Positions 1 to 52,362 of a stretch of DNA of 64,000 nt are shown piece after piece; positions within the stretch are counted from its first letter, which is position 1; each line of letters starts with the position of its first letter. The notes beneath the pieces were generated by a model. The model was not told where the DNA came from, did no database searches, and saw only the letters and a program-made list of their open reading frames with translations. The translations under genes were made by a program, and so were the position numbers. The DNA is from a virus, in IMG/VR virus record IMGVR_UViG_3300028908_000007, positions 1 through 64,000 of that record. One strand, written 5' to 3'.

Positions 1-1302
1 CCTCTTCCATACCCACACAATTGGACTACAAATCCAGTTAGGATTACCATTACTGCAAAGAATGAATCATTATTGTATTATGGAGTAACTGAGTTCATTC
101 TGGGAGAGTATCAGAAACCAATAAGTAATACTACAGATACAGTTAGTTCTTTATATACAGTACACACTGTAGTAAATAAAACAATAAAGAAACTAGATAT
201 AGATACCCTATCATTAGAACCTGTACAACTTCTAAACAATACAAGTGTTTTCAATAATGATTTTGAAGAAATATATGTAAAAGATGATAAGCTTATTGCC
301 GTTGGGTTCGTATCAGCCACCTATACTGATACCAATGGAAATACAGTAACAGCAACCAATGATAATATAGCTGTATTTGATATAGGTCTTAAATCATTAG
401 TAAAGACCAGTACGATTACAGGTACCGTAGTACAAGATGAAGTAACCAAAGAACTCTATACTATAGATCATTATACAGGCACTTTTTCTAGTCTGGATAT
501 TGATACCTTAACAGAATCAACGATTGTTGCTCTACCACAACCTACATATAGTGTATTGCTTCGTGATAAAGTAGCATATGTGTTATCAAAAGCACATACT
601 GTTGGCGGTGAGGAGCAACTATCTTTATATAAGATCGATATTCCAACAGGGACGTTTTCTGAGATATCGACAATAAAGAATTATAATCCAACTACATCTT
701 CTATGAATCCTTCTTTTAGTCCTGGAGATATAGCATACCAGAAAACAGATGATAAAGATTTATTAGTTATTAGAATTTTTAATACGACTCCGTTGAGTAG
801 CGATACTACCATACCCCAGGTAAATGGTATCAATCTTACAACAGATGTAGGTACTATAGATTCCGGTGTATTGAATTATGTGGTGGTAGATGTAGATGGT
901 GCGCCTTGGGTGGCTTTCCACTCTATGGCATGGGCAGTTCATCCAACCTTCTTACAAGAGCCAGGTATTGCTTCTATCCCAAGAAAAACATTAATGGTAG
1001 ACGATGAATATGTTTCTTATTTTTCATATAGGAAATCTCCAGACAATTACAGACTTTCCTACACACCAGTAACTTCCACTCTTAGAGGTGTAATTCAAAA
1101 TCCAGTATCAAAAGACCCAGTATATTGGACTAAGATTTCCGATATAGTACAGATATCGCCAGGCAAGTATTTGGTTATTGGTAAAGGACAACACAAACAC
1201 GGTGGGACACTTTCTACAACTAGTGCTGTAATGGCTATCTACACACCATCTGGTGAGATTATTTCGTATAAGATTGCATCAGGAGAGCTTGGTCGGGCGT
1301 GA
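1..1302 (+). CDS. Tail-fibre-like beta-propeller protein, 5' truncated by window edge
   Basis: The reading frame is open from the first base, so this is the last 433 codons of a longer gene. The protein is rich in short beta-strand segments with Thr/Ser/Val and resembles the C-terminal propeller halves of the tail-fibre paralogues at 52457-64000, though without clear GG Kelch signatures. Likely role: virion tail fibre or baseplate decoration (inference). It is followed without a terminator by the omega RNA and IscB gene. The last codons before the TGA at 1300 lie in sequence that may belong to the IscB element, so the native C-terminus may have been altered by the insertion. Confidence 0.55.
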   Translation, partial: PLPYPHNWTTNPVRITITAKNESLLYYGVTEFILGEYQKPISNTTDTVSSLYTVHTVVNKTIKKLDIDTLSLEPVQLLNNTSVFNNDFEEIYVKDDKLIAVGFVSATYTDTNGNTVTATNDNIAVFDIGLKSLVKTSTITGTVVQDEVTKELYTIDHYTGTFSSLDIDTLTESTIVALPQPTYSVLLRDKVAYVLSKAHTVGGEEQLSLYKIDIPTGTFSEISTIKNYNPTTSSMNPSFSPGDIAYQKTDDKDLLVIRIFNTTPLSSDTTIPQVNGINLTTDVGTIDSGVLNYVVVDVDGAPWVAFHSMAWAVHPTFLQEPGIASIPRKTLMVDDEYVSYFSYRKSPDNYRLSYTPVTSTLRGVIQNPVSKDPVYWTKISDIVQISPGKYLVIGKGQHKHGGTLSTTSAVMAIYTPSGEIISYKIASGELGRA

Positions 1303-1490
1303 TCGTAAAGTAGACTAAGTCCTTTTAGTCCGCTCCATGTGATCACTATCAGGAAGTAGTCCTGTACGTACCGACCAGCGCTCCCACGATAGTGGGAAAA
1401 CAGTGAAGTAAGTTTGGTCAGCTAGTGAGACCGCCCAAGACCTATCTGTTCAAGATAGCGTATTGTAATGTGTTTTTATCTAGGAGGTTA
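1280..1490 (+). ncRNA. Candidate omega RNA (IscB guide RNA)
   Basis: This stretch directly upstream of iscB is GC-richer than its surroundings and packed with complementary arms. GTGATC 1299-1304 pairs with GATCAC 1341-1346 and encloses GACTAA 1313-1318 / TTAGTC 1325-1330. Other hairpins are CAGGA 1350-1354 / TCCTG 1360-1364, TCCCAC 1382-1387 / GTGGGA 1392-1397, GGTC 1416-1419 / GACC 1429-1432 and CTATCT 1442-1447 / AGATAG 1453-1458. GGGCG 1295-1299 can close the scaffold with CGCCC 1432-1436. Known IscB loci have the omega RNA just 5' of the ORF, with its 3' end reaching the gene's ribosome site and the guide at the 5' end. The layout fits, including the final hairpin before the AGGAGGT ribosome site. 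Exact ends and guide length are inferred. Confidence 0.75.
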
Positions 1491-1493
1491 TTT

Positions 1494-3164
1494 TTGCCTA
1501 ACTATGTGCCAGTGTTATCTGACGATGATAGAATAATTGGCTATGGCCATCCATCTGTCATCCGAAAGATGTTTAGAGCAAAAGTAGCATTTGTATGCTC
1601 TCGTCACCCATTTATGGTGAAGATGAAGAAAGGCATCAAATGTAAACATGCTCTTAAGAAGTATGTAGAATATGGTATAGATCCTGGTGTACACCACACT
1701 GGAGTATCTGTAATATCTTACGATACGATACAAACTACTGAAGGTCGTATCTCTTTGCGAGATATATTAGCCATGTATGTATTGGAGCATAAGAAACTTA
1801 TTACTAGGAAATTAGAAGAAAGGGCCATGTATCGTCATCATCGACGACGTAGACAACAACGTAAAGGTACTAGATGGTCCAGACTAGGTAAAGAATTTCA
1901 CGTATTACCAGGAATAGATGAAGTTAGAGAAGACGGTACTAGGAAGTACCGTAAAGAGAAAGTAATCCTAGGATACAAAGAACGTAAACTACGTAACCTG
2001 GAATTACTAACAGAGTGGCGTAATTCTGGAAAGATTTCAGAAGAAGAGTATCGATCTAGAGCAAGACAGATCGATAAAGCTTTAAAAGAGCTAGATAGGA
2101 AATATTACAAGCCTAAGAGCTGGTTATCACCAGCTACTAGGAGTAGATTAGAAAACATAGGATATTTCATACATAAGATTTCTTATGGTTTAAATACTAA
2201 TAGACCTATGGTTATCTATTACGAAGATGTAAGATTTACACCTGAATTGGCAGAAGATATATTTAGAGATACCAATAGTATACTTAAACCCATACAAAAA
2301 GACTATATACGCTGGAGAGATAACTATCAGTGCCAGCTATGTGGCTATGATTTTATTAAGAATAATTTCAAAAGACAACCGCAAATAGACCATATCTATC
2401 CTAGGTCTAAAGGTGGTCCTAACGATAGGACTAATTTACAACTTTTATGCTCTAGCTGTAATCAGAAAAAAGATAATTATCTACCACATGAACTCTACTC
2501 TATATTCCCTAAGAAATACCATAAAGCTATAGACAAAATGCAAAATAAAACAAACCATACTAAGCAATATCAAACAAAATCCACTCAAACCAGGAAACTA
2601 TTTGCAAGATATCTGGAACTAGCCATTACAAAATCCAGACTAAGTCCTACTAGGCAAATAGATCTTAAATATCCTACCATTATGTTTAAGGATAAGATAA
2701 TTCATAATTCAGAATTAGTCTATGTCGATAGAGTACCTGGGTATTTTACATACTACTGTAGAAATTATAATAACTTACCAAAAGAACACTGTATAGATGC
2801 TGCCTGTGTATCTAGTAAACCAATACGAGTAAATATAAGATCATATCAGTATACTGAAATTAAAGTAAAGGGACATAGAGATAAATTATACATACGGCCA
2901 GATAAATATGGTTTTCCTAAGAAAACTAGACCTAAACCACGTACTAAGCGTATAAACGGATATCAATCTGGAGATCTAATAAAATATATTACCAAGAATA
3001 ATAATATCTGCAAGGCATATGTCTCTACATCAGCACAAGATGGTCGTATAGCGCTTAATAAAAATGGAAAACAAGTTTTTATGACTACCAAACGAATGCT
3101 ATCCATACTGCATAAAGCAGATGGATATCTCTGTAACCCTGTTAATTTTGGAGACCACTTATGA
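1494..3164 (+). CDS. iscB: IscB RNA-guided HNH/RuvC nuclease
   Basis: A 556-residue protein with all IscB parts in order. The N-terminal PLMP-like segment covers about residues 3-45. RuvC-I is YGIDPGVHHTG (Asp63). An Arg-rich bridge helix lies near 112-130 (HHRRRRQQRKG). RuvC-II is IYYEDVRF (Glu244). The HNH domain has CQLC at 280-283, DH at 299-300 and CSSC at 319-322. RuvC-III is HCIDAAC (His432, Asp435). A C-terminal TAM-interaction-like domain contains GYQSGDLI and DGRIALN. The TTG start at 1494 is chosen because a perfect AGGAGGT sits 6 bases upstream; the frame extends further 5' only through the omega RNA. All catalytic residues are intact. No TnpA transposase is nearby, so mobility, if any, would be by nuclease-driven homing (inference). 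Confidence 0.92.
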   Translation: MPNYVPVLSDDDRIIGYGHPSVIRKMFRAKVAFVCSRHPFMVKMKKGIKCKHALKKYVEYGIDPGVHHTGVSVISYDTIQTTEGRISLRDILAMYVLEHKKLITRKLEERAMYRHHRRRRQQRKGTRWSRLGKEFHVLPGIDEVREDGTRKYRKEKVILGYKERKLRNLELLTEWRNSGKISEEEYRSRARQIDKALKELDRKYYKPKSWLSPATRSRLENIGYFIHKISYGLNTNRPMVIYYEDVRFTPELAEDIFRDTNSILKPIQKDYIRWRDNYQCQLCGYDFIKNNFKRQPQIDHIYPRSKGGPNDRTNLQLLCSSCNQKKDNYLPHELYSIFPKKYHKAIDKMQNKTNHTKQYQTKSTQTRKLFARYLELAITKSRLSPTRQIDLKYPTIMFKDKIIHNSELVYVDRVPGYFTYYCRNYNNLPKEHCIDAACVSSKPIRVNIRSYQYTEIKVKGHRDKLYIRPDKYGFPKKTRPKPRTKRINGYQSGDLIKYITKNNNICKAYVSTSAQDGRIALNKNGKQVFMTTKRMLSILHKADGYLCNPVNFGDHL

Positions 3165-3303
3165 TACGATCACACTGGCTAGTCACTAGTCCACGTTCGT
3201 CCTATAACGATGCTATGCATCACGTCCTCACTACGACCACCTCTGCTCCGCGATGCTACACATCCGGGGTCTGGAGGTCGTAATATATCCGTATATTACT
3301 CCT
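3165..3303 (+). other. Structured GC-richer stretch downstream of iscB; candidate right end of the element
   Basis: This region is non-coding by my reading and much richer in G+C than its neighbours. It contains a GATGC-TAT-GCATC hairpin at 3209-3221, the near-inverted pair GGCTAGT / ACTAGTCC at about 3179-3194, and ACGACC near 3233 that can pair with GGTCGT at 3275-3280. A GGAGGT at 3273-3278 lies too far from the ATG at 3304 to serve it well. The composition matches the omega RNA region, so this is probably the right flank of the inserted element. The exact border cannot be fixed from one sequence. Confidence 0.45.
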
Positions 3304-3714
3304 ATGTCTGTCGTAATATTACCAACACTTAGTGATAAACATTGGGTAGTAGACCCCGTATCAAAAGCTGATATGTTATTTGCACATTTTATGGCAGGTA
3401 GTAATACACAAACCTATATGTATACATCGGAAGTATCTTCACTACCCTACCTATTACAGAAGTATGGTCATAATCCAAACGAATTTGCTACTAATGTAAA
3501 AACCAGATTACAAATCTACTATCAAAGGTACTATGACAATGTAGATATACAGGTCTATGCCAAAGAGGAAGTAGAAGGAACAAACAGATATAGCATACAT
3601 TTGGATATGATTGTTAGTGATGACGGTGGAAAAGAGATACAATTAGGAAGGATTTTGACAATTAATGATGGTAAAATGCAGAAGGTGGTAAAGTTAAATG
3701 CAACTGGATCCTGA
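3304..3714 (+). CDS. Virion/baseplate protein, possibly gp25-like
   Basis: The product has 136 residues from ATG 3304. An in-frame ATG at 3253 would add 17 residues, but those lie in the GC-rich flank of the IscB element, so the later start is preferred; neither has a well-spaced ribosome site. The pattern of a short N-terminal strand, a YLLQKYG segment, a helix FATNVKTRLQIYYQRYYDN and alternating beta strands resembles small baseplate wedge proteins of the T4 gp25 type (weak, by eye). It overlaps the next gene by 17 bases, consistent with one operon. The IscB insertion may have replaced its original translation start. Confidence 0.5.
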   Translation: MSVVILPTLSDKHWVVDPVSKADMLFAHFMAGSNTQTYMYTSEVSSLPYLLQKYGHNPNEFATNVKTRLQIYYQRYYDNVDIQVYAKEEVEGTNRYSIHLDMIVSDDGGKEIQLGRILTINDGKMQKVVKLNATGS

Positions 3715-13420: not shown

Positions 13421-15379
13421 TTGATAAACATCCGAGATTTGGTAACACTCGAATTAGACCAGCTACAAGGTAAAATTCCGTCCTACTTTACTCTCCTCAT
13501 GGAAGATGGAGAGAAACTAAATACTACTTTTGCTGAGGCTTTTCTAACTACTCCATGGCTTAGAGTCTTACGAGAGTATCCGAAAGTAGTAATTACCAAG
13601 AAATTATACATACATGAATATCTACAAAACAACTTAATAAGCATTGGAGATATAATCAAGCTAGCCTCTGCTATACGTAAGGCAATAATTCTTACATACA
13701 ATATTACAGACCCTAACGATATCGTAGAGTTAAATGATAAAGTAGCCGCATGTAGAAATGTATTCTATAACTCTATTATCTATCTAGAACCTTATATGAG
13801 TGGTGGGTGTTTAGAAGATTTTATAGAGATACATAATAATAAAAGAATAAAGAAAAATCTTTCTCAGAGACTACAATACACAGAATGGGTAGAACAAACC
13901 CACAACATCATTATGGACGAGTTAATAAAAGCAGATAGTATTTCTTTAGACAATGAAATAAGGAAAGCAATTCTAGCAAGAAATGTAAATACTACACAAG
14001 CATTACAATGTGTAGGTCCTAGAGGAGTATTAGCCGATATCGATGGTACGATTTACCCGACTATTATCACACGAGGATATTCAGAAGGTCTTGAAAATAT
14101 TGTATTCATGGCACTAGATAGTCGAATGGCTGCCAAAGCATTGTTCTTAGCAGACGATATGATCAGGAAAGCTGAGTATTTTGCCAGAAGACTACAAGTA
14201 GTAGCCATAGGTATAGAAAGAGCAGAAGGAGACGATTGTGGTACGAATAACTATCTAGAGTGGGATGTAGAAGGAATGCTTTATGAAGATGGAAGTGTAA
14301 AGAGTTGGGGTACATTACCCTATTTGATAGGATCTTACTATCTCGACGACTCTGGAGAACTAAAAAGGATAGAAGGAAATGAAAAACATCTTATAGGAAA
14401 GACTATACGAAAAAGATGGGTAGTAGGATGCAAGAATAAGAACCCGCATACGAAGTGTAGAAAATGTTTAGGAGATATTGTATACAACGTACCACCACAG
14501 GCAAATATAGGACATCTGGCTGCTGCTGTAATGACAGAGCAAACCACACAGCGTGTCTTGTCTGCCAAACATAAAATGGGCAGTACAATTGAAACAAACC
14601 CATTTATTACAGATGTAGCCAAAAGATATTTTCAATTTGAGGATGAAGCGTATTGGATAAAAGATAACACATATACACATATCGGTATCAATATACAACA
14701 GCTTAGGAATTTAAGTATGAAATCTATTATAGGTTCTGTTGAGATAGGTAATATAGATACTGTATCTTTGTATAAGGATAATGATTTAGAGAATCCAAAA
14801 CGTGTACGCATTATCAACACCAAAGGAGGATTGATTCTATCGAAGGATTTTATTAAATACATTAATAATATTACAATAAACAATAATGGAAAGGAATATA
14901 TATTTACATTAGAGAAGTGGAAGTTTACCAAACCTATCTTTAGATTGATACCAAAGGAATATGGGTATCAGGAGCACTTGGCCGATATAGAATCTGTGCT
15001 ATTTAGTCTATCGAAAAACAATAGCTATAGAAGCAATAAGATCCTCGATAGAGATCCTAGAGAAGGACTATTGGATTTTTACCATAAGATAAACCCAGAT
15101 CTACAGATGAATATATCCTTTTTGGAAGTTATAATCTGTGCATTGTGTGCTAGAAATCCCACAGTGGGAGACTATAGACTACCAATTGGAAATCCAGAAG
15201 CAAAGATGGTAAAGATATTGGAAATCTCCAGAAATCGCTCTAAGGCCCTACTATACACATATGAGAAAATGACAGATCCGATTTATAGCCCAGAGGGAAT
15301 AGGTTGTAAGGTAAAAGATGATCATATATACGATGTGCTTATCAAACCACACGATGTTTACAAATCTCTAACATCTTAA
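13421..15379 (+). CDS. RNA polymerase beta-prime subunit, C-terminal half
   Basis: A 652-residue protein from a TTG start with GAGGA 8 bases upstream. It holds the trigger-loop region GLENIVFMALDSRMAAKAL (about 221-239; compare [20 protein letters not shown] of beta-prime), the DDCGT motif near 270, a Cys cluster at about 336-349 (C..C pairs in HTKCRKC), and the bridging segment NIGHLAAAVMTEQTTQRVLS at about 361-380, equivalent to [20 protein letters not shown]. The beta-prime N-half with the metal-binding DFDGD motif is not in this window. It is co-transcribed with the beta C-half, 3 bases apart. Confidence 0.88.
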   Translation: MINIRDLVTLELDQLQGKIPSYFTLLMEDGEKLNTTFAEAFLTTPWLRVLREYPKVVITKKLYIHEYLQNNLISIGDIIKLASAIRKAIILTYNITDPNDIVELNDKVAACRNVFYNSIIYLEPYMSGGCLEDFIEIHNNKRIKKNLSQRLQYTEWVEQTHNIIMDELIKADSISLDNEIRKAILARNVNTTQALQCVGPRGVLADIDGTIYPTIITRGYSEGLENIVFMALDSRMAAKALFLADDMIRKAEYFARRLQVVAIGIERAEGDDCGTNNYLEWDVEGMLYEDGSVKSWGTLPYLIGSYYLDDSGELKRIEGNEKHLIGKTIRKRWVVGCKNKNPHTKCRKCLGDIVYNVPPQANIGHLAAAVMTEQTTQRVLSAKHKMGSTIETNPFITDVAKRYFQFEDEAYWIKDNTYTHIGINIQQLRNLSMKSIIGSVEIGNIDTVSLYKDNDLENPKRVRIINTKGGLILSKDFIKYINNITINNNGKEYIFTLEKWKFTKPIFRLIPKEYGYQEHLADIESVLFSLSKNNSYRSNKILDRDPREGLLDFYHKINPDLQMNISFLEVIICALCARNPTVGDYRLPIGNPEAKMVKILEISRNRSKALLYTYEKMTDPIYSPEGIGCKVKDDHIYDVLIKPHDVYKSLTS

Positions 15380-19491: not shown

Positions 19492-19818
19492 ATGCCTAAT
19501 TCAGATGTTAGGACCTGGATGACCAAGGATCGGTATAAGAAAATATATGGAGAGTACCGTAGAGATGTGAAAGAATGGAGTTGTGATTGGACTGCGCAGG
19601 AGGCGCTTGGTGAAAAATACAGGGATGTGATGTGTGTAGTTAACCCGAACATGGAAGTCTGGCCGTTGGATCAGCGGCGTGGAACCGACCCTAGGTTCTA
19701 CTCACCGAAGAACATGGTATGGTGGTGGAGGACATACTACAATGTCCCCACCTATCGTAGGGAAGCGATCAGTTTGAGGGATTTTTATAAGAAGTCAGTG
19801 AGTTTGGATCCTTATTGA
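19492..19818 (+). CDS. Small Trp/Tyr/Arg-rich hypothetical protein
   Basis: 108 residues with eight Trp and ten Tyr, basic, no membrane segment or signal. It has a strong ribosome site (AAAGGGGG, 8 bases before ATG). Codon choice is more G+C-rich than in neighbours (CCG, CTG, CGG, GCG), as in the capsid gene, suggesting high expression or a different origin. Bounded downstream by a very strong terminator, it forms a single-gene transcription unit. No family recognised. Confidence 0.65.
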   Translation: MPNSDVRTWMTKDRYKKIYGEYRRDVKEWSCDWTAQEALGEKYRDVMCVVNPNMEVWPLDQRRGTDPRFYSPKNMVWWWRTYYNVPTYRREAISLRDFYKKSVSLDPY

Positions 19819-19833
19819 TCCAGACTTGCTAAT

Positions 19834-19879
19834 GGCAGCAGGTAGCGGTGTACCGCTACCTGCTGCCTTATTTTTTTTT
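19834..19879 (+). terminator. Rho-independent terminator
   Basis: GGCAGCAGGTAGCGG at 19834 pairs with the mirror arm ending at 19867 (CCGCTACCTGCTGCC), about 15 bp with a tiny loop, followed by TTATTTTTTTTT. It closes the gene at 19492 and separates it from the convergent helicase gene. Confidence 0.88.
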
Positions 19880-19880
19880 G

Positions 19881-21410
19881 TTAAAAATCGTCGGAATCCG
19901 AAACTCCGGTTTTTAATTCCTGCACCGTCCTGGCGCCCTGTTTTATTTCTTCAGTATCTGGAGGTATGGGCATAGATTCTGGGAATTCGAATACCAAATA
20001 CTTATCTTTTGTAGGAATGATTCCAGTGCCTCTATGTTTTCCTCGACACATATGTAAATATGTCTTCCCGACTCTTTTATCTTCTTCTAGTGCGATATAT
20101 AATTCTAAGTCGATTTCTGTATCTAACTGCCTTGACTTTGCGTAATAACCGCCGCCGTTGATTTCTTCGAGAAGTTTTCTTCCACGTATTCCTTCTCTCC
20201 ACAGTTGTTTTGCCTCTGTTGAGAGTTGATGAGGTGTAATGAAACATATCTTTTTACTACTAAAGAAGTTTCTTACACGTTTGAACATATCCTGCACGTC
20301 AGTGCCAGCAGCTCCACTTCGATCACATCCATAGGTAGGTAGCATTGAAAGATAATCTACCATACACATATGGACTTCATATCCTTCTGCTTCATAGTTT
20401 AATATAACATCCAGAAGATTTCTATAAGTCCATTCGGAAGGATTTACACGCAACATCTTTATATGATATCCATTTATCTCTAATTGTTCTTTGACATAGG
20501 ATGTCATTTCCTTATAATCGTATTGGTATGGATCTACGTTTTCTCGGGTTTCTGCATATTTGAGGTAGGTAAACAACATCGAGAAGTTATGATGAAGTTC
20601 GTCTTCGAGAGATATTCTTAATAAGAGGGGCTTGCGATCTTCATTTATCATGGATGGTTTATTGCACATAGCGATTTGTGCAAATAGACTTAAACCCATT
20701 CCTGTCTTATAGTTATGTTGTAATGCTGCGAGAGTTACAAATTCTCCTCTACGGAATCCACCTTGAAGAGTCTTATTTAGTACTTCCCATCCAGTTTTCA
20801 GTATGGCAGTACCATCGTGTTCTTCTCGCGCTCTTTTGTAGATCTCTTCCAATGTGTTTGGATCGTCAAGATTTACTTTGTCAATAATGGCTGGATCTTC
20901 TTCACCAGAGCTTATCTCTCCTTCGATTTCTCCTATCAGAGTACTAATGGTAGTCTTTAGTGGTTTTCCACCTTCTGCTAACTCTCCATAAGCTCTAGAT
21001 ACGACATTGATCAGTCTTTGTCTTCTTATTTTTTCATTGAGTTCTCTTTTTATCGTTATTATTCTTTTTGTTACGGCTTCTGGAGTCATAACTGAACTAT
21101 CTTGTATAGCTGATCGCAATGTGCTATACAATGCGTCTTTATGACCCATCGTAATAAATTCTATATCGGCTAATATATCCTCTCTCGAATACTCTATATC
21201 TGGAGGATCATTACACATATCATATACTGTTTTAATCAATAATCCAGTACCATCCATATTATGCACGCCTGGTCCTACCAGACGCTGGATCATTTTGTCA
21301 TTGTCGAGTAATTCCTTTACCAGTTCCCTGCTATCAGACTGTCTTGGTTTTATAATGGTCTCTAGATATAACAGGATATAGCATTTTGATAAAATTCTTC
21401 GTTCTTCCAT
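19881..21410 (-). CDS. DnaB-like replicative helicase
   Basis: A 509-residue RecA-fold hexameric helicase of the DnaB/T4 gp41 type. The P-loop is divergent: ALQHNYKTGM (Lys235) in the place of the usual GKT/GKS, preceded by GFRRGEFVTLAA. Walker B is HMCMVDYLSML near residue 344. ITPHQLSTEAK near residue 395 corresponds to DnaB motif H3 and GGGYYAKSRQLD to the H4 region. It would unwind phage DNA at replication forks. It is the only gene on the minus strand between 11.3 and 31.8 kb; its start lies about 55 bases from the divergent gene at 21467. Confidence 0.82.
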   Translation of the reverse strand: MEERRILSKCYILLYLETIIKPRQSDSRELVKELLDNDKMIQRLVGPGVHNMDGTGLLIKTVYDMCNDPPDIEYSREDILADIEFITMGHKDALYSTLRSAIQDSSVMTPEAVTKRIITIKRELNEKIRRQRLINVVSRAYGELAEGGKPLKTTISTLIGEIEGEISSGEEDPAIIDKVNLDDPNTLEEIYKRAREEHDGTAILKTGWEVLNKTLQGGFRRGEFVTLAALQHNYKTGMGLSLFAQIAMCNKPSMINEDRKPLLLRISLEDELHHNFSMLFTYLKYAETRENVDPYQYDYKEMTSYVKEQLEINGYHIKMLRVNPSEWTYRNLLDVILNYEAEGYEVHMCMVDYLSMLPTYGCDRSGAAGTDVQDMFKRVRNFFSSKKICFITPHQLSTEAKQLWREGIRGRKLLEEINGGGYYAKSRQLDTEIDLELYIALEEDKRVGKTYLHMCRGKHRGTGIIPTKDKYLVFEFPESMPIPPDTEEIKQGARTVQELKTGVSDSDDF

Positions 21411-34226: not shown

Positions 34227-36221
34227 ATGGGGCGGTTGTTGATCGTGAAAAAACTCGAATTGATTCTGCAAGATTACATACTATCTACCTTTAAATTGGC
34301 AGGAAGTATGCAGATAAAAAATATAGATGCTGTAGAGAGCATCAATGACTTTTTACGCATCACACACGGTGATAGTAGTGTCGGCAGTGACCCGCTTACA
34401 TGGAAATACTATTTAAATGTTTCCGGGGAATACCACAGCACAGATAAACCAATGTCTGTAAATTCTGTGGAATTACAAGGATTGGTCATTCCATTTACTA
34501 AAGCTTCTTTAGATACCTATAAATTAACGAAAGATGTATACTCTTATGGAACCGATAAGTATTATCAGTTGGTAGAAAAATATCCAGAACAAGAACTATT
34601 AATAAAAGGAATTCTATACCCAACAGATATCAATAGAGCCATTTCTGCTCAAGATGGTGAAATACTCGCCTATGATGAGCGATATGTGCAGAGTAATGAA
34701 TGGGGTCTTATTGAGGAAATAAACCAGTGGATTTATAACTGGCTGAGTCGTTGGAATGAGCGAGGATTCACTTTAACAGACGAGCTTTATTCTGCGGCCA
34801 GACATGGTATTATGTCGATGTATCTTCCCCTGAAAATAATGGATATACGTCAAAGAAAAATAGGGACGATACATGCTCATGATTTTCATAAGAAGTTATA
34901 TATCAGTAGCAGGATGTCTGAGGATATTGTAACTTCTGTACTGAACGAATATAGCATACAATGGATCTATAGAAATCTTCGATATATCAATGCTCAAAGA
35001 GGGAAGGCTTTGACTAGCGATATCATAATAGATAATTTATTGGAACTGAACAAGATACCAATCTCATGGACTACCAGGACACAGGTAAAACAACCGTATC
35101 CTAGTCTTCTTCCAGATATACTTTATAAAGATAAAGCATTGACGACTCGTTGGAATACAGCAAAAGAGCTATACAGGACAGAAGCAGAAGTTATCGATTT
35201 AGAAAAAGACGAAGCATACTATAATGCAAGCTACCTGGATTATCATACGAAATCTTTATCGAAATATACGAGATTTTCCTCTATGCCTACTAAGGTTCTG
35301 TTATCATACATAATAGATAAAGGAGACTATGTATCACATACCTATAAACATATCTTAATAGAGCATTGGGGATATATGGTAGCTTCCAATGATTATAAAG
35401 GCAATGTGGTATGGAAGAATACCTACAATGATTTAGAACACACTCTTACTATGTCAGAAGCTTTTGCTCTATACATGTATTTCACTTTGAAGAAACTCAA
35501 TAGTTCTTTGGAGCCTGTCGGGTTCCCGAGATGGTACTACACCCATATAGCCAATAATACAGATACTGCTACAGTATTAACCAACATGCCAAAGGATGTA
35601 AAGGTAGACACAGATATACAAGACTATGGCGACCAACACACTGTAATTGATACAGTAATTGGTGGTGAATTGTTTAAGACACAGATAAAAAAGATATATG
35701 AATCAAATATCTATGGTTGGAAAAAGGTATTATCAAAAGGAAATCTATATTCAAATGGCATTATGCGTAACATGTGGTTCAAGTACTATAAGTATGGAAG
35801 CATACCTTTAACAGATTATCCGGATTACAACACAATGTTCACAGCACTAAACATTACAATGCCTGATAACATGTCCATGAGTTATATAGATACATCGTTA
35901 AACGAGTTACAAAAGTTATGTATTGGAGACGTAGATGAAGACACTTTGAGGATATTGCAAGAATCTGTATTAAGGATATTTGATCTGTCTACTTCCTATA
36001 GGACACAAACAATAAGTAAGATAACCAATACGTTCTCATATTACGGAAGACATTGTGGTGTGAAATACACACCAGGAAAGATTAGCCAGTACTATTCTAA
36101 GGTTCATCCAGTGATAAGTGAACCACCACATGAAGACATCCACGTAACAGGAGATTGGTTTCTAGTGTCTTTTGATCAATTAACACCAGCCCAACAAGCA
36201 CAAATCGGAGATATTTACTAG
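34227..36221 (+). CDS. Virion structural protein, 664 residues or slightly shorter
   Basis: Three possible starts: ATG 34227, GTG 34245, or an ATG near 34306 with AGGA just upstream (MQIKNIDAVESIND). The protein is Tyr- and Trp-rich, mixed alpha/beta, soluble, with no enzyme motif. It begins 7 bases from the divergent portal start and is followed 2 bases later by another virion-type gene, so a tail or baseplate component is likely from position. No family recognised by name. Confidence 0.6.
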   Translation: MGRLLIVKKLELILQDYILSTFKLAGSMQIKNIDAVESINDFLRITHGDSSVGSDPLTWKYYLNVSGEYHSTDKPMSVNSVELQGLVIPFTKASLDTYKLTKDVYSYGTDKYYQLVEKYPEQELLIKGILYPTDINRAISAQDGEILAYDERYVQSNEWGLIEEINQWIYNWLSRWNERGFTLTDELYSAARHGIMSMYLPLKIMDIRQRKIGTIHAHDFHKKLYISSRMSEDIVTSVLNEYSIQWIYRNLRYINAQRGKALTSDIIIDNLLELNKIPISWTTRTQVKQPYPSLLPDILYKDKALTTRWNTAKELYRTEAEVIDLEKDEAYYNASYLDYHTKSLSKYTRFSSMPTKVLLSYIIDKGDYVSHTYKHILIEHWGYMVASNDYKGNVVWKNTYNDLEHTLTMSEAFALYMYFTLKKLNSSLEPVGFPRWYYTHIANNTDTATVLTNMPKDVKVDTDIQDYGDQHTVIDTVIGGELFKTQIKKIYESNIYGWKKVLSKGNLYSNGIMRNMWFKYYKYGSIPLTDYPDYNTMFTALNITMPDNMSMSYIDTSLNELQKLCIGDVDEDTLRILQESVLRIFDLSTSYRTQTISKITNTFSYYGRHCGVKYTPGKISQYYSKVHPVISEPPHEDIHVTGDWFLVSFDQLTPAQQAQIGDIY

Positions 36222-45711: not shown

Positions 45712-46179
45712 ATGTGGATATTGTTAAAAGTATTTTCCAAGATACTCGGAGATACAGCAATCCATCGATTGATTGTTGGAGGAGTATTAGGATTACTGGT
45801 AGATAGAAATTCGTCCTATGAAGAAATAAAACATATTGTCGATAATATCAATAGGAAACGTGAATTAGCCCACGATCCAGAATCATTGATACTTCCGATC
45901 TGGTTGGCTACGGAAATGTGGAAAGCACCTACAATATGTGAGTTTACGAAGTCGTTTGAATTAAACAACGACTCAGATTGCTCTACACTGAGAGATGCAG
46001 TGCTCCATTCGAATGTAAGTCATAGACAGATCGCTGCTTGGCTGATAGATCGGTTAAACCCGGTATTGCGAAAGCGCATTAGCGGAAAGGAAGAAACATA
46101 TATACACGATATTGTACATCTTTTAGATGACTTTGCTAGTCTTACTACATCCACTACAACCCACGCTCACGCAGCGTGA
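45712..46179 (+). CDS. Hypothetical protein, 155 residues
   Basis: Helical protein with a short hydrophobic N-terminal stretch (IHRLIVGGVLGLLV), not a convincing signal peptide. No strong ribosome site precedes ATG 45712, and a nearby later start is possible. The C-terminus ends with a TTSTTTHAHAA tail. It is followed by a strong terminator. No family recognised. Confidence 0.5.
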   Translation: MWILLKVFSKILGDTAIHRLIVGGVLGLLVDRNSSYEEIKHIVDNINRKRELAHDPESLILPIWLATEMWKAPTICEFTKSFELNNDSDCSTLRDAVLHSNVSHRQIAAWLIDRLNPVLRKRISGKEETYIHDIVHLLDDFASLTTSTTTHAHAA

Positions 46180-46198
46180 TTGTGATGGAGATAAAACA

Positions 46199-46231
46199 CC
46201 CACCCTCTCCCAATCCATGGGAGAGGGTGGG
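46199..46231. terminator. Bidirectional terminator between convergent genes
   Basis: CCCACCCTCTCCCA at 46199-46212 pairs perfectly with TGGGAGAGGGTGGG at 46218-46231 (14 bp, loop ATCCA). Confidence 0.88.
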
Positions 46232-46246
46232 ATAAATAATACTAGA

Positions 46247-47053
46247 TCAGATCTGATCAGAAATCATCTTCATTCCAACATAAAATGCAGAAACGGTATC
46301 TATAACTATTGTGTTATAATATGCCGTGTTTTCTACTGCATTTATTGTAGCTTCCAACAATCCCTTTATGACGATCAACTCCCTGTCGTCGAGTTTCTTG
46401 GCATTTTTATAAAGCTTGTCAACTTTTGAATCAACCGCTTTTATGATCCCATTTACTCTGGATAAGTCTGGAGTAGGGTCTTGCTTTTCAAGTAAGAAGT
46501 GATTCTTTATTGTGCTTACCAAGAGTTTTTCATTTCCATATGCATTCGATACGGTAGATATTTCTACTTTTGAATCCATTTGAAAGTGCGATCGTATATC
46601 ATCATCTACGACTCTATTTATCTTTTCACATTCATCCCTTATTGACTTAATTCTACCATGCTCGTCTACCATTTCTTTCCCATAGACTTTTACTGCGATA
46701 TATTTGTCTAATTGATCTAATATGTCTGCCATAGTGGCTGTTAAATAACTATTCTTTGCTAAGTCCGGATATAGTTTATACATTGGATCTGATAGACCAA
46801 TTGGTATAGGTACGGTATTTGATCTAAGTTTATAGAAGTTTTCCCGAGTTATACGTTTACTCACATACCTTAATGTATTTCGTACAGTAGGAACACTATC
46901 AGGCAGTTGAGTATAGATAGAATTTGTACGGCGAAATATATCAAAAACACCCAACAGATTTGAGAAGCTTCGACTTAGAAAGCCAATGGCTTCCAAACTA
47001 TCTGTTATATTGGTGTAGTCTTCGGAGGAAAAATCCGTAATCTGAATGGACAT
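46247..47053 (-). CDS. Hypothetical virion-block protein, 268 residues
   Basis: Helical soluble protein, no recognised domain. Start ATG complements 47051-47053, 58 bases from the divergent RecA-like gene. The last 160 residues contain heptad-like leucine/valine patterns (GIIKAVDSKVDKLYKNAKKL) that may form a coiled coil. A 14-base perfect palindrome GATCAGATCTGATC (46245-46258) straddles its stop codon. Confidence 0.6.
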   Translation of the reverse strand: MSIQITDFSSEDYTNITDSLEAIGFLSRSFSNLLGVFDIFRRTNSIYTQLPDSVPTVRNTLRYVSKRITRENFYKLRSNTVPIPIGLSDPMYKLYPDLAKNSYLTATMADILDQLDKYIAVKVYGKEMVDEHGRIKSIRDECEKINRVVDDDIRSHFQMDSKVEISTVSNAYGNEKLLVSTIKNHFLLEKQDPTPDLSRVNGIIKAVDSKVDKLYKNAKKLDDRELIVIKGLLEATINAVENTAYYNTIVIDTVSAFYVGMKMISDQI

Positions 47054-52199: not shown

Positions 52200-52276
52200 G
52201 GGCCTTTAGCTCAGTTGGTTAGAGCAGTCGACTCATAATCGATTGGTCGCAGGTTCGAGCCCTGCAAGGCCCACCA
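52200..52276 (+). tRNA. tRNA-Ile(CAT), AUA-decoding type (Ile2), rather than Met
   Basis: A full 77-base cloverleaf with encoded CCA. Acceptor GGGCCTT pairs with AAGGCCC; D-loop AGCTCAGTTGGTTAGAGC; anticodon loop CTCATAA with anticodon CAT; T-arm CAGGTTCGAGCCCTG. The anticodon arm and following GACTCATAATC...TTGGTCGC closely match bacterial tRNA-Ile2, whose CAT is modified to lysidine and reads AUA. AUA is very common in this genome. A Met tRNA cannot be fully ruled out. Confidence 0.9.
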
Positions 52277-52277
52277 T

Positions 52278-52362
52278 CGGGGTGTGGCGAAATTGGCAGA
52301 CGCAAGGAACTTAAGATTCCTCGGTTTTTACCGTGTCGGTTCGAGTCCGACCACCCCGACCA
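52278..52362 (+). tRNA. tRNA-Leu(TAA)
   Basis: An 85-base class II tRNA with encoded CCA. Acceptor CGGGGTG pairs with CACCCCG; D-arm GCGAAATTGGCAGACGC; anticodon stem-loop AGGAACTTAAGATTCCT with anticodon TAA; long variable arm CGGTTTTTACCG; T-arm TCGGTTCGAGTCCGA. It reads UUA/UUG, abundant in this AT-rich genome. It lies one base after the tRNA-Ile. Confidence 0.95.

Follow-up and report, generated by a model that had tools for sequence, protein, structure and literature searches.

The closest described relatives of the locus reported here are the obligate mobile element-guided activity (OMEGA) systems of IscB, represented by the protein model NF040563, the HEARO RNA model RF02033 and the proteins OgeuIscB and OrufIscB. 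In these systems the omega RNA lies directly upstream of iscB and ends before the ribosome site of the gene, and a guide of 16 nucleotides (nt) is derived from the flanking DNA. The canonical 5′ order of HEARO RNAs is a P1 stem beginning with GUC, two hairpins enclosed by it, a closing GAC, an unpaired CA and a G-starting stem around P4. Here, we analysed bases 1-64,000 (the window) of the 75,388-nt viral record IMGVR_UViG_3300028908_000007, where an earlier reading of the letters alone (the original prediction) had proposed an omega RNA in front of an iscB gene. The locus consists of an open reading frame (ORF; 1-1302), a structured RNA (1292-1461, the RNA block), iscB (1494-3164), a structured stretch (3232-3299) and a further gene (3304-3714). 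We consider it probable that bases 1292-1461 are the omega RNA scaffold of a diverged, phage-borne IscB (OMEGA) element spanning ~1292-3303, with a guide taken from its left flank.

The identity of the gene was borne out by domains and by fold. On the 556-amino-acid (aa) protein Pfam detected RRXRR (PF14239, 60.1 bits, cut-off 25) and HNH, whilst the NCBIfam model guided_IscB (NF040563) scored 126 bits, below its curated 175-bit cut-off, marking the protein as kin under the equivalog threshold. The residues D63, E244, H300, H432 and D435 align in invariant or nearly invariant columns (47-49 IscB sequences) and, as in canonical IscBs, the PLMP region, the bridge helix and the RuvC and HNH motifs are present. 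The closest PDB folds to the AlphaFold model (predicted local distance difference test, pLDDT, 68.6) were IscB and IsrB complexes (E 4e-14 to 9e-10), headed by 9nvu, an engineered OrufIscB-REC complex, with other IscB and IsrB complexes next. Judged on domains and fold, the protein is a member of the IscB family. However, compared with ~120 other IscBs gathered from bacterial genomes and viral contigs it is distant, sharing 24-32% identity with those sampled and measuring 556 aa where the collected IscBs are mostly 420-490 aa and canonical IscB/HEARO proteins ~430 aa. Its terminal branch in a FastTree phylogeny has a length of 3.24 changes per column, where the median is 0.18, and its placement in the tree is therefore unreliable; no close relative was found in the viral or genome collections searched. 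Behind the bridge helix lies a two-helix insert, at the position occupied by the mini-REC domains of larger IscBs and type II-D Cas9s (PMC13180657). Unlike those domains, the insert matches no recognised family in sequence, and no CRISPR array was seen. A phmmer match of residues 505-546 to transcription activator-like (TAL) effector repeats was rejected as repeat inflation, single repeats scoring 1-7 bits.

Upstream of iscB, the original prediction had described at least six complementary arms packed into ~160 bases, arranged in the order of known omega RNAs and with a last hairpin ending just before the ribosome site. The arms were found in place on the + strand, the last hairpin ending 23 nt upstream of the AGGAGG. 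In the unconstrained minimum free energy (MFE) structure P1, enclosing P2 and P3, is followed by a single free C and then by a helix that closes around P4, an order also found in HEARO, though P2 is larger than in HEARO RNAs and bears an extra apical helix. A strict descriptor of this topology, written after the locus was seen (GTC and at least two more pairs to the bases preceding GACCAG), finds a match ahead of 70 of the 112 other iscB genes; on both strands of the whole record it has a single match, at 1292/1376, directly upstream of iscB. The hairpins within P1 and P4 comprise 12 and 6 base pairs, the medians of other loci being 11 and 6. By folding energy, the region of the arms reaches -64.4 kcal/mol where shuffles give -54.4 +/- 4.0 (z = -2.5; 4/200 as low), and 190-nt pieces there reach about -61, the genome mean being -37.6 (sd 9.6), with ~17 other places in the record folding equally well or better. 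The modest z-score alone would suit an AT-rich phage sequence that happens to fold. However, the arrangement of arms is rarer by chance than folding energy alone: among 40,000 dinucleotide shuffles of 1280-1493 the P1 motif arose 466 times, the motif with modest hairpins 146 times and the full observed strength once, and the single match in 150 kb of strand falls directly upstream of iscB, so that a chance structure is hardly credible.

Base changes within P1 point the same way. Its fourth pair is A-U in most loci, G-U in L308 (an IscB element of another phage contig, described below) and G-C in the window. Across nine distinct P1s, a set in which the window and L308 rows were picked by complementarity, 96% of cells pair, 4 of 6 pairs have changed on both sides and the covariation score was reached by 0 of 500 shuffles. 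The RNA block most likely works as an omega RNA, and its transcript probably continues beyond 1461 to the iscB ribosome site.

To place the element ends we relied on multi-copy IscB elements. Near-identical copies occur five times in Desulfobacter latus and four times in Baaleninema simplex, in different flanks each time; their left end is HEARO base 1 (within 0-3 nt), and their right end falls ~90-95 nt past the iscB stop, just beyond a two-stage hairpin, at ATGG or ATGAA. By analogy with this rule, the left end of the present element would be G1292 and its span ~1292-3303. A self-derived guide at the 5′ end, proposed originally at about 1280-1296, agrees with these boundaries in its left-flank origin but not in its register, which shifts to 1276-1291 because 1292-1296 belong to P1; the predicted guide includes AGGAG (1281-1285). 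The accompanying claim that the guide is the 3′ end of an interrupted tail gene holds in so far as the final three codons of the left ORF (GGT CGG GCG) and its stop TGA fall inside the element. Its tail identity and its interruption found no support, since the ORF, whose 5′ end is cut by the contig start, has no family match and no homolog in Pfam, IMG/VR, phage records, same-record paralogs or 50 phiKZ-like contigs.

A loose descriptor of the right-end hairpin proved unspecific (met at 110/115 loci), and the CTCC..GGGGT motif within the hairpin was therefore used instead, which follows 21 of 115 iscB genes and occurs in 12 of 2272 background windows. A boundary at ~3290, 7-9 nt past the hairpin as in the bacterial copies, was our first reading. 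It was replaced by 3303 because the downstream ATG marks the end of L308 and of two further phage IscB elements, L296 and L299, and because ACTCCT-ATG (3298-3306, the sole + strand copy in the record) is common to the window and L308; the boundary nevertheless lies between ~3290 and 3303, an uncertainty of ~13 nt. The ACTCCT at which both right ends finish is the complement of a ribosome site, located where that of the downstream gene would be expected. Of the hallmarks of an IS200/IS605-type transposon, a right-end hairpin is present, but no TnpA transposase was found among the ORFs around the element. A target-adjacent motif (TAM) from the right flank near 3300, as originally proposed, fits the boundaries of multi-copy elements, and its ATG start agrees with the ATGG/ATGAA that follow the bacterial copies. 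For IsrB the measured TAMs are NTG, NTGA and NTGG, one of these IsrBs coming from a viral metagenome (PMC9581776). The IsrB omega RNA (DtIsrB) also shares the order of S1 stem, unpaired CA nexus and S2 stem with the RNA block, but IsrB lacks an HNH domain and its RNA is ~300 nt long (PMC9581776). Structured RNA on both sides of an ORF would also be expected if iscB were the homing ORF of a group I intron or IStron, placed between its two structured halves. This is very improbable: Rfam gave no group I or II match at gathering or E = 10, the fold of the right half is that of an IscB right-end hairpin, and the downstream gene is complete, its homologs aligning from the same Met, so that there is no split exon to join.

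Table 1. Features of the IscB locus and its flanks (window coordinates).
Feature	Position	Strand	Details	Basis
Left-flanking ORF	1..1302	+	5′ end cut by contig start; stop TGA 1300-1302	
Predicted guide	1276..1291	+	16 nt, GCATCAGGAGAGCTTG; immediately 5′ of P1	P1 homology, multi-copy boundaries
Omega RNA scaffold, structured core (predicted)	1292..1461	+		Fold, HEARO-like topology
P1	1292-1296/1371-1375	+	Sixth pair 1291/1376 possible; encloses P2 (1299-1346) and P3 (1350-1364)	
P2	1299-1307/1338-1346	+	Apical helices 1309-1311/1332-1334 and 1313-1319/1324-1330	
P3	1350-1354/1360-1364	+		
GACCAG	1373..1378	+	P1 end, unpaired CA, start of next stem; nearly invariant in HEARO RNAs	
P4 hairpin	1382..1397	+	TCCCAC-GATA-GTGGGA; 1382-1387/1392-1397	
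Hairpin	1416..1432	+	GGTC-AGCTAGTGA-GACC; 1416-1419/1429-1432	
Last hairpin	1442..1458	+	CTATCT-GTTCA-AGATAG; 1442-1447/1453-1458	
iscB ribosome binding site	1482..1487	+	AGGAGG	
iscB	1494..3164	+	556 aa, TTG start	Pfam, NCBIfam, alignment, fold
Parts of IscB (residues)			RRXRR/PLMP region; RuvC-I D63; two-helix insert ~154-204; RuvC-II E244; HNH H300; RuvC-III H432/D435; C-terminal target-motif region	
Right-end two-stage hairpin	3232..3282	+	Outer TACGACCACC/GGAGGTCGTA; inner CTCCGCGATG/CATCCGGGG	
Small palindrome, right end	3280..3299	+	GTAATATA-TCCG-TATATTAC	
ACTCCT	3298..3303	+	Probable final bases of element; same six bases before downstream ATG in L308	
Predicted TAM	3304..3308	+	ATGTC; begins with downstream gene's start codon; fits NTG-type TAM	
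Downstream phage gene	3304..3714	+	136 aa, phrog_3294; 5′ end intact	

Joining base 1291 to 3304 yields CAGGAGAGCTTG-ATGTCT, that is, GGAG, 6 nt and a start codon; phage genes of the window with a clear ribosome site mostly have GGAG plus seven. The 3304 gene at present has no ribosome site, in keeping with a site split off by the element. Joined flanks likewise bring a Shine-Dalgarno (SD) sequence next to ATG in L308 (AAGAGGAAAGCA to ATGACG), L296 (GGGAGTTGAT to ATGAAA) and L299 (AAAGGAGTCACA to ATGATA), and in L308 the joining would in addition restore a stop to the left gene, in an ATGA overlap, provided that one A is shared. The right-flank gene of L299, separated from its ribosome site, is a putative RNA ligase, as read by eye from MIKFQKYNSIENSY.

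Judged from its genes, the carrier of the element is a phiKZ-like jumbo phage: the RNA polymerase subunit genes of the window are ~30% identical to their phiKZ-like counterparts, and the gene order 3′ of 3304 (136-aa gene, 170-aa gene, SbcD-like gene, RNA polymerase) is that of the group. Canonical IscB/HEARO elements were found at gene junctions in 2 of the 50 phiKZ-like contigs, L307 (contig G057) and L308 (G066). Both share the jumbo phage host lineage with the window, and L308 also the SD/ATG junction and the terminal ACTCCT. However, they carry clear HEARO RNAs (L308 109 bits, L307 100 bits) and ordinary IscBs (332 and 402 bits), and L307 has no evident right-end hairpin, a structure that the window shares with canonical elements. 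In the window, the genes at 34227 and 36223 are neighbours; the L307 element lies between their homologs. Elsewhere, L292 (2827-4234) and L293 (6165-7572) are IscB elements ~74% identical and 3.3 kb apart, in contigs of 101-105 kb that also encode a distant RNA polymerase beta homolog.

Several results weigh against an OMEGA element of this kind. The HEARO model RF02033 gave no match at the RNA block, at gathering or at E = 10, whether the window or a short region was searched; membership requires 83 bits, and the RNA block is not filed as a HEARO member. This covariance search, by which the original prediction was to be checked, was positive in every other viral IscB record examined (31/31, 28 above the cut-off), leaving the window as the exception. 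A covariance model of our own (R1, from 27 canonical IscB 5′ domains) also found nothing at the RNA block, because RNAalifold retained only P1 and the remainder is sequence signal without counterpart in the window. The conserved HEARO core (ACGUU, CACC..AUGC, GCUCUG, UAACA) is absent, the descriptor was post hoc and its genome-wide match count is small, and P2-P4 of this lineage have no homologs for comparison, as there is no close relative. Moreover, the AlphaFold model is middling (predicted template modelling score 0.55), SD-like guides show only modest enrichment in viral elements and are not general (7/36 viral and 3/34 genomic elements against a 7.8% background), and the joined flanks leave the left ORF open ~10 codons into the 3304 gene. 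Finally, no empty site was recovered with the left-flank protein in the collections listed above: no phage or viral contig searched carries the left flank, and its 19-mer has no match in IMG/VR. Of the phiKZ-like relatives with the downstream gene, most carry a different ~210-aa gene upstream of it, where readable, and are therefore uninformative as empty sites. The downstream gene of L308 returned only itself from IMG/VR, and the joined flanks of L299 and L296 matched nothing in phage records.

The negative covariance models, together with other intergenic regions of the phage that fold as strongly, could be taken to indicate that the RNA block is a structured mRNA leader through which translation of the nuclease is controlled, or else an unrelated RNA of the phage, and that IscB functions as a plain HNH/RuvC nuclease. 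A scan of the whole of Rfam at gathering and E = 10 gave chance matches only (RAGATH-12 at 0.09). However, P1-GACCAG-P4 stands at the right place and on the right strand, and the IscB keeps all omega-RNA-binding and catalytic regions; we regard a leader as quite unlikely. In a published survey the Rfam model matched 65% of HEARO-nuclease leaders (PMC9755519), and the HEARO miss is therefore compatible with an omega RNA. Alternatively, the omega RNA may serve a domesticated IscB whose guide is not used for spreading the element but is directed at a site in a host or rival phage, or at the regulation of a phage gene, its derivation from the flank being incidental. The long branch and the lost HEARO core suggest unusual constraint, no transposase was found among the ORFs around the element, and a second near-match to the guide (GTATCAGGAGCACTTG, 14965-14980, 3 mismatches) lies in an RNA polymerase subunit gene. 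Set against this, both mobile-element ends are still recognisable, a neighbouring TnpA is absent from most IscBs anyway (PMC9755519), and the near-match is within chance (0.25 expected), which makes domestication unlikely.

What the analysis establishes is the IscB gene, the topology of the RNA and, in other IscB elements, the boundary rule. For a mobile OMEGA element, the likeliest course of events, which we infer, is as follows. Read-through transcription from the left flank, with processing, would give an RNA whose 5′ end is the 16-nt guide; bases 1276-1291 would become guide because transcription of the iscB leader starts in the flanking DNA and runs on into the element. IscB would bind this RNA and seek DNA matching the guide and then the TAM. 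The carrier genome would be safe from self-targeting because the element separates the guide-matching DNA from the TAM. In a co-infecting relative without the element, the guide-matching sequence would be joined to ATGTC and cleaved there, the predicted empty-site junction being the left flank (1240-1291) joined to 3304-3350, with the guide sequence next to ATGTCTGTC. Repair of the cut allele from the carrier would then transfer a copy of the element, in the manner of homing or gene drive. One report describes RNA-guided nucleases as enabling gene drive of insertion sequences in plasmids (PMC11870625).

Two further features of the record were noted. Its strongest folds between genes are at 19681-19950 (MFE -75 to -88) and 46161-46350 (-74 kcal/mol), neither with an Rfam match. 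Two tRNA genes at 52200-52359, whose anticodons read CAT and TAA in the alignment, directly precede an array of long genes of 610-680 aa reaching the window end.

If the locus is a diverged IscB element, its protein and RNA would be among the most diverged IscB/omega RNA pairs, with an RNA that escapes standard searches. The pair would help to define which RNA parts are essential and how loss of the RNA core accompanies a REC-like insert. We also put forward, tentatively and as a doubtful extension, that the RNA represents a new omega RNA class in a jumbo phage, reduced to the guide-proximal P1/P2/P3, nexus and P4 with the HEARO core lost or replaced, and paired with an IscB carrying a REC-like insert; such elements may settle between ribosome site and start codon and use the start codon as TAM. 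If true, shrinkage of the RNA and gain of REC, as proposed en route to Cas9, would have a natural parallel here. More broadly, the element would add RNA-guided elements to the phiKZ-like phages, whose DNA sits shielded in a nucleus during infection, and would supply an exact target sequence with which homing between co-infecting jumbo phages could be tested.
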